From: Chloroflexota bacterium
GTDB taxonomy: Bacteria > Chloroflexota > Anaerolineae > JAAEKA01
Assembly (NCBI GenBank): GCA_034717495.1
Contig: JAYELL010000091.1
Coordinates: 1 to 64,000 of the forward strand
Length of the DNA stretch: 64,000 bases
Reading direction: 5' to 3'
The notes under the pieces are model-generated. The model was not told the origin of the DNA and ran no database searches. It worked only from the letters and a program-made list of their open reading frames with translations. Numbering within the stretch: the first letter of the stretch is position 1; each line of letters begins with the position of its first letter. Shown here one piece after another: positions 39,189-44,758 of the stretch. The position numbers and the translations under genes were made by a program.

Positions 39189-39217
39189 ATTATAACATGC
39201 GGGTATACCTCTGTCAA
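39189..39217 (-). promoter_or_regulatory. Consensus promoter of the Rieske/cytochrome b/cytochrome c operon
   Basis: TTGACA (39217-39212) and TATAAT (39194-39189) are both perfect and 17 bases apart, and the -10 is extended (TGTTATAAT). Start near 39182 leaves a ~150-base untranslated leader before the Rieske ATG. Confidence 0.85.
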
Positions 39218-44428: not shown

Positions 44429-44466
44429 AAAAAAAACACCCCTTTCGTCACAAGGACGAAAGGGGT
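44429..44466 (-). terminator. T-box-controlled intrinsic terminator
   Basis: A 12-bp GC-rich stem with a 5-base loop is followed by eight T on the minus strand. Its upstream arm lies next to the T-box sequence, so the antiterminator and terminator are mutually exclusive. Confidence 0.93.
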
Positions 44467-44723
44467 TCTCTCGCGGTACCACCTTGTTTGACAACAGTGA
44501 CAGGCACTGTCATCCACTCAGGCGCTGTAACGGGCTCACCCGGGATGACCTACTGCAGGCTAACCTGTATTCTCAGCCATCCAACTTCCCGGCGACCTTC
44601 AACGGGGCTCGCATCGAGGTGGGCTCTCAGCCGTTGGCTCACCCTTTCTGGCGACGGCTTTCCGTTTACTCCTCCGGTTCGCAGTTGTTGCTTTGCACGG
44701 TTTCGTGCTATTTGCTTTGAAGT
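44429..44723 (-). ncRNA. Valine T-box riboswitch leader of the methyltransferase-valS operon
   Basis: The leader contains the T-box core AAGGTGGTACCGCG (44485-44472) that reads the tRNA acceptor end. It is followed by a terminator with a perfect 12-bp stem (44466-44455 with 44449-44438) and eight U (44436-44429). Upstream, Stem I is visible: an AGTA bulge followed by AACGG pairs with CCGTT. The 3' side of the resulting loop reads GAAGGTCG, placing the specifier codon GUC (44596-44594), a valine codon. Uncharged tRNA-Val would favour the antiterminator and let transcription proceed. Confidence 0.95.
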
Positions 44724-44729
44724 GGCGCG

Positions 44730-44758
44730 ATTATAGCCCAATCCCTGGCCGCTGTCAA
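44730..44758 (-). promoter_or_regulatory. Perfect consensus promoter of the T-box leader
   Basis: TTGACA (44758-44753) and TATAAT (44735-44730) have an exact 17-base spacer. Start of transcription is expected near 44723. Confidence 0.9.

Follow-up and report, generated by a model that had tools for sequence, protein, structure and literature searches.

A valine T-box leader ahead of a methyltransferase-valS operon in a Chloroflexota bacterium

On the minus strand of the 64,000-nt window (the whole stretch of DNA analysed here), a leader resembling a T-box riboswitch stands in front of a gene encoding a methyltransferase. This arrangement raises the question of which tRNA such a leader would sense, which gene it would chiefly regulate, and whether the methyltransferase belongs functionally to the unit that it opens. 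Judging from sequence and comparison, we read the locus as a canonical transcription-attenuating T-box riboswitch that is specific for tRNA-Val(GAC) and controls a methyltransferase-valS operon, and we put the probability of this reading at roughly 0.94. A valine T-box with transcription attenuation was also the core of the original prediction, which is supported by a covariance-model match (E 3e-20), a GUC specifier, competing antiterminator and terminator folds, and the presence of valS as the second gene.

Architecture of the leader

The predicted leader comprises the following features, given from the promoter downstream:

44758-44730, minus strand: sigma-70-type promoter TTGACA-17-TATAAT, 12/12 consensus positions
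44691-44449, minus strand: T-box leader RF00230; covariance model, 219/219 model positions, 89.3 bits, E 3e-20
44677-44589, minus strand: Stem I from its lower helix upward; CCGG 44677-44674 paired with CCGG 44592-44589, RF00230 structure
44673-44667 opposite 44600-44593, minus strand: specifier loop, AGGAGUA opposite GAAGGUCG; RF00230 structure and compensatory changes
44596-44594, minus strand: specifier codon GUC (valine), within the 3' strand GAAGGUCG, unpaired in the RF00230 structure
44487-44450, minus strand: antiterminator, ACAAGG 44487-44482 paired with CCUUGU 44455-44450 plus an inner helix; fold of 44450-44490, -12.4 kcal/mol
44485-44472, minus strand: T-box core AAGGTGGTACCGCG, identified by sequence; its UGGU matches the ACCA end of tRNA-Val (A73)
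44466-44438, minus strand: intrinsic terminator hairpin, 12 pairs; fold of 44430-44470, -21.1 kcal/mol
44437-44430, minus strand: terminator U tract of eight U, GTTTTTTTTC, identified by sequence

The perfect promoter claimed in the original prediction is present, and the TTGACA/TATAAT pattern with a spacer of 15-19 occurs twice in the window compared to 0.01 occurrences expected by chance. Related valine T-boxes have the same promoter at a comparable distance, as checked in two of the compared valS leaders (L032 and L034). From the position of the promoter, the leader would start at about 44723. A second perfect TTGACA-17-TATAAT promoter lies at 39189-39217 of the window (minus strand), upstream of Rieske/cytochrome b genes (39031 and below).

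Scanning the whole window against Rfam at gathering scores produced no match, because the curated cut-off of RF00230 is 93 bits and the leader scores 3.7 bits lower. Applying the RF00230 model to the minus strand, the check suggested along with the original prediction, gave a significant, full-length match that nevertheless misses the gathering score. Two other Rfam matches, to a PyrR binding site (RF00515; 16.9 bits vs a gathering score of 54, E 8.1) and to ST7-OT4_2 (under its cut-off), were rejected as chance.

The assignment of GUC as the specifier, and hence of valine as the amino acid sensed, follows from the RF00230 structure and agrees with the valS gene downstream. Comparison with other Chloroflexota valS leaders found GUC at the same place in 38/38 cases with a placeable loop, a figure flattered by the placement procedure, which required GUN and took the best-paired option. 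When the requirement for a valine codon was dropped, GUC was still the commonest triplet (27/41), and the Stem I helix pairing in this less constrained search was 0.786, compared to 0.61 +/- 0.02 with shuffled 3' arms (2000 shuffles, maximum 0.678). The lower helix is maintained by compensatory changes among the 38 leaders (CCGG/CCGG, CAGG/CCUG, CGGG/CCCG, UGGG/CCCA, GCGG/CCGC, CGGA/UCCG, UGAG/CUCA and GGGG/CCCC), such that four pairs co-vary. The AGTA-type loop of Stem I noted earlier is likewise intact in its GAA/AGUA form and matches those of the relatives.

Folding Stem I, as had also been suggested, gave a divided result that bears on the refuting condition attached to the original prediction. 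In the minimum-energy fold, UC of the GUC triplet pairs with GG of AGGAGUA with a probability of about 0.9, but no alternative codon is exposed in place of GUC. Moreover, 13 of the 38 leaders that keep GUC have loops (AAGAGUA, AGCAGUA, AGUAGUA) in which this 2-bp pairing is impossible. The GG:UC pairing is thus not a conserved feature, and we set it aside as evidence against exposure of the specifier.

Downstream of Stem I, the T-box core, an antiterminator and a 12-bp terminator followed by eight U were all located as originally described. Positions 44466-44450 are common to the antiterminator and the terminator, which overlaps the 3' arm of the former, rendering the two folds mutually exclusive. 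The genome carries a gene for tRNA-Val(GAC) (locus L118), whose discriminator, A73, fits UGGU.

The operon and its predicted control

Two genes follow the leader:

44334-43528, minus strand: gene 1, class I SAM-dependent methyltransferase, 268 aa; Pfam Methyltransf_25, 1.6e-21
43531-40778, minus strand: gene 2, valS, valyl-tRNA synthetase, 917 aa; NCBIfam PRK05729 and TIGR00422, both above cut-off

The earlier statement that the first gene is a methyltransferase, not valS, is correct for gene 1 but misleading for the operon, given that gene 2 is valS (1168.9 bits with PRK05729, cut-off 704; 1051.1 bits with TIGR00422, cut-off 612.1). Control of the methyltransferase alone was rejected on this ground. 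The valS reading frame opens within the gene 1 stop codon, with a 4-nt overlap, behind AGGAAGGA, and no promoter-like site was found between the terminator and valS; for these two reasons, we infer that the methyltransferase and valS share a single transcript. Sequence and comparison demonstrate the elements of the leader, its specifier, the mutual exclusion of its folds, the cognate tRNA and the operon order.

Gene 1 gave many generic class I matches and no NCBIfam equivalog above its cut-off, and naming a substrate for the methyltransferase was accordingly dropped. An ORF of 336 aa (40771-39761, minus strand), 6 nt downstream of valS, has a lipoprotein-like start and no Pfam match; it may be a third gene of the operon. 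The nearest named relatives of the ValRS are those of Caldilineales SKYG74 (77%) and Caldilineae J102 (71%), which places the host among Chloroflexota near Caldilineales, in agreement with the Chloroflexi origin that had been proposed.

By analogy with the T-box family, the leader is expected to switch in response to tRNA. When tRNA-Val is charged, the 12-bp terminator would fold and transcription would halt ahead of the operon. Uncharged tRNA-Val would pair through its anticodon GAC with the GUC specifier and through its free ACCA end with UGGU in the T-box bulge, holding the antiterminator in place. The antiterminator would then occupy the 5' arm of the terminator, allowing RNA polymerase to continue through the methyltransferase gene and on into valS, which overlaps it, and failure of charging would thus yield more valyl-tRNA synthetase. 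Essentially, this reading corrects that of a T-box set over a stray methyltransferase: the leader would serve ordinary synthetase feedback.

A different view of the locus accepts the T-box as real but has valS expressed chiefly from an internal promoter, such that the switch mainly governs the methyltransferase. The methyltransferase gene does intervene between the leader and valS, and a promoter-like site with 9/12 consensus positions is found at 43486-43459; this site, however, is within the valS coding region and cannot drive full-length valS. The 4-nt overlap of the two genes and the usual location of GUC T-boxes in Chloroflexota, directly before valS, also argue against an internal promoter, and we consider this scenario very improbable. 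Loss of switching in a decayed T-box relic, to which the score under the RF00230 gathering cut-off and one unpaired position in the upper helix of Stem I might point, deserves hardly any credence, as the core, terminator, promoter, specifier and GAA/AGUA loop are all intact, as in relatives, and other T-boxes of the genome have similar scores.

Recurrence of the methyltransferase in T-box operons

With the riboswitch reading preferred for the leader, the role of gene 1 was considered separately. Within the family of the host, the order T-box-methyltransferase-valS is found in two relatives (G001 and G004); in G005, the T-box is followed by valS without the methyltransferase, and in G003, a different ORF separates the T-box from valS. 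Of the 35 homologues inspected across the class, 13 directly follow a T-box as its first gene; these 13 come from families f1, f10, f14 and f8. In the retrieved stretches, the methyltransferase is followed by valS in f1, f14 and most of f10; the contig of one f10 genome (G122) ends before valS, and other genes, either an AbrB/PIN pair or a nitronate monooxygenase, also intervene in some f10 genomes. In f8, the specifier of the T-box is one for leucine (GAACUCG), and the methyltransferase and leuS come after it. Loci with the order T-box-methyltransferase-aaRS in families other than that of the host include L145, L147, L150, L153, L154 and L160-L163. Outside the class, a T-box ahead of a methyltransferase homologue was seen at 0 of the 28 loci inspected; core-motif matches in L231, which lie within the coding frames, were left out of the T-box count. 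The recurrence of T-box-methyltransferase-aaRS across four families, three with valS and one with leuS, is a mildly new observation.

A single origin of all T-box-linked methyltransferases is disfavoured (p-AU 0.013, for a group named after the tree was seen), and one origin of the valine-linked methyltransferases is not rejected (p-AU 0.196). These results suggest at least two captures of the methyltransferase by T-box operons and therefore lend some support to a functional link. The patchy presence of the methyltransferase fits hitchhiking too.

On balance, we lean towards the methyltransferase being a mere hitchhiker, without functional partnership with the synthetase. Its absence from G005 and replacement by another ORF in G003, the other valS loci inspected, where no methyltransferase lies between the T-box and valS, the homologues in other families and classes that do not adjoin a T-box, and the additional genes inserted in f10 all favour this interpretation. 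It has to be weighed against the appearance of the same methyltransferase family as the first gene behind T-boxes in four families and against the tree result, with its post hoc choice of group. More doubtfully, the methyltransferase could work together with branched-chain aminoacyl-tRNA synthetases, forming a recurring amino-acid-starvation module of this class in which, upon failure of charging, it would modify the tRNA, the synthetase or a metabolite related to them.

Other T-boxes of the genome and the phylum

The host genome contains seven T-boxes (ileS, trpE, thrS, val, leuS, pheST and aspS/asnS-like), only one of which attains the Rfam gathering score; consequently, the other six are missed in default annotation, and the curated RF00230 cut-off overlooks most T-boxes of this genome. 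The rules of specifier and of pairing between the T-box bulge and tRNA position 73 seen in the valine leader also hold for the leaders of ileS (AUC, U to A73), trpE (UGG, C to G73), thrS (ACC, A to U73) and pheS (UUC, U to A73). The seventh T-box, preceding the aspS/asnS-like gene, is weak. For the leuS T-box (CUC), a tRNA-Leu(GAG) was not found among the tRNAs examined, and a loose-pattern search gave 63 matches vs 59 in the control. In the relative G004, the thrS T-box is immediately preceded by a tRNA-Val(GAC) gene (L028:1415-1490).

In two leucine T-box leaders of f8, a complete tRNA-Ala(GGC) is nested between Stem III and the antiterminator (L153:2299-2713 and L154:2298-2701), and the Rfam T-box match spans the nested tRNA with 70.8 and 79.4 bits, respectively. 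A tRNA-Ala(CGC) is located just before Stem I of the nested-tRNA leaders, and because the best promoter match precedes this tRNA, a single transcript is predicted with the order tRNA-Ala(CGC)-Stem I/III-tRNA-Ala(GGC)-antiterminator-methyltransferase-leuS. A pattern search of 396 genomes of the class detected a tRNA T-arm at a distance of 60-90 nt upstream of GGTGGNACC in 34 genomes, compared to a handful in the reversed control. ARAGORN, combined with the presence of a T-box core on the strand of the tRNA, confirmed the nested arrangement at 19 loci in three families (16 in f15, 1 in f25 and 2 in f8; including L203-L219). T-box and tRNA-like Rfam matches occurred together in 13/13 f15 loci tested, and leuS was found downstream of nested-tRNA leaders wherever the retrieved sequence extended far enough (L203, L209 and L219). 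In the host genome, a tRNA-Ala pair lies upstream of the leuS T-box and is not nested; in the family of the host, including the host itself, a tRNA-Ala(CGC)/tRNA-Ala(GGC) pair is seen just upstream of the leuS T-box (L005:1501-2090, L017, L023, L025 and L026). A literature search covering titles and the openings of abstracts returned no description of a tRNA nested in a T-box leader. If RNase P excises the nested tRNA, the sensing domain would be cut off from the antiterminator, and it would matter which came first, switching or processing.

T-boxes are nearly universal in Chloroflexota, being detected in 140 of the 151 genomes sampled (E up to 1e-6), and had already been reported from Chloroflexi in 2008 (Dehalococcoides ileS, trpE and a trpB-like gene; PMC2494555) and 2013 (PMC3766115). 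The original prediction was therefore right that such leaders are known in Chloroflexi, and this one is not a rare non-Firmicute example.

Compared with the canonical transcriptional T-box of RF00230, the leader shares Stem I with its AGUA/GAA specifier loop, Stem III, the AAGGUGGUACCGCG antiterminator, the competing terminator and a cognate aminoacyl-tRNA synthetase operon, and no essential difference is apparent; its shortfall from the gathering score is like that of most T-boxes of the genome. The Dehalococcoides T-boxes are alike in mechanism and phylum but differ in amino acid and class, and valS is not among the Chloroflexi cases named in the relevant passage of that report (PMC2494555). 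Close counterparts are the valS T-boxes of Chloroflexota, such as those of SKYG74 (L034), J102 (L032) and Thermanaerothrix daxensis (L049), which have GUC, UGGU and valS downstream as here. GUC T-boxes preceding valS are common across the phylum, and most lead straight into valS, whereas here a methyltransferase gene intervenes. At two further Chloroflexota loci (L045 and L046), the T-box and the matched valS are separated by an ORF of ~830 aa that resembles a second valS or a related synthetase. Seen against these systems, the leader is a functional-looking but ordinary example of the Chloroflexota valine T-box, a kind that is already known.
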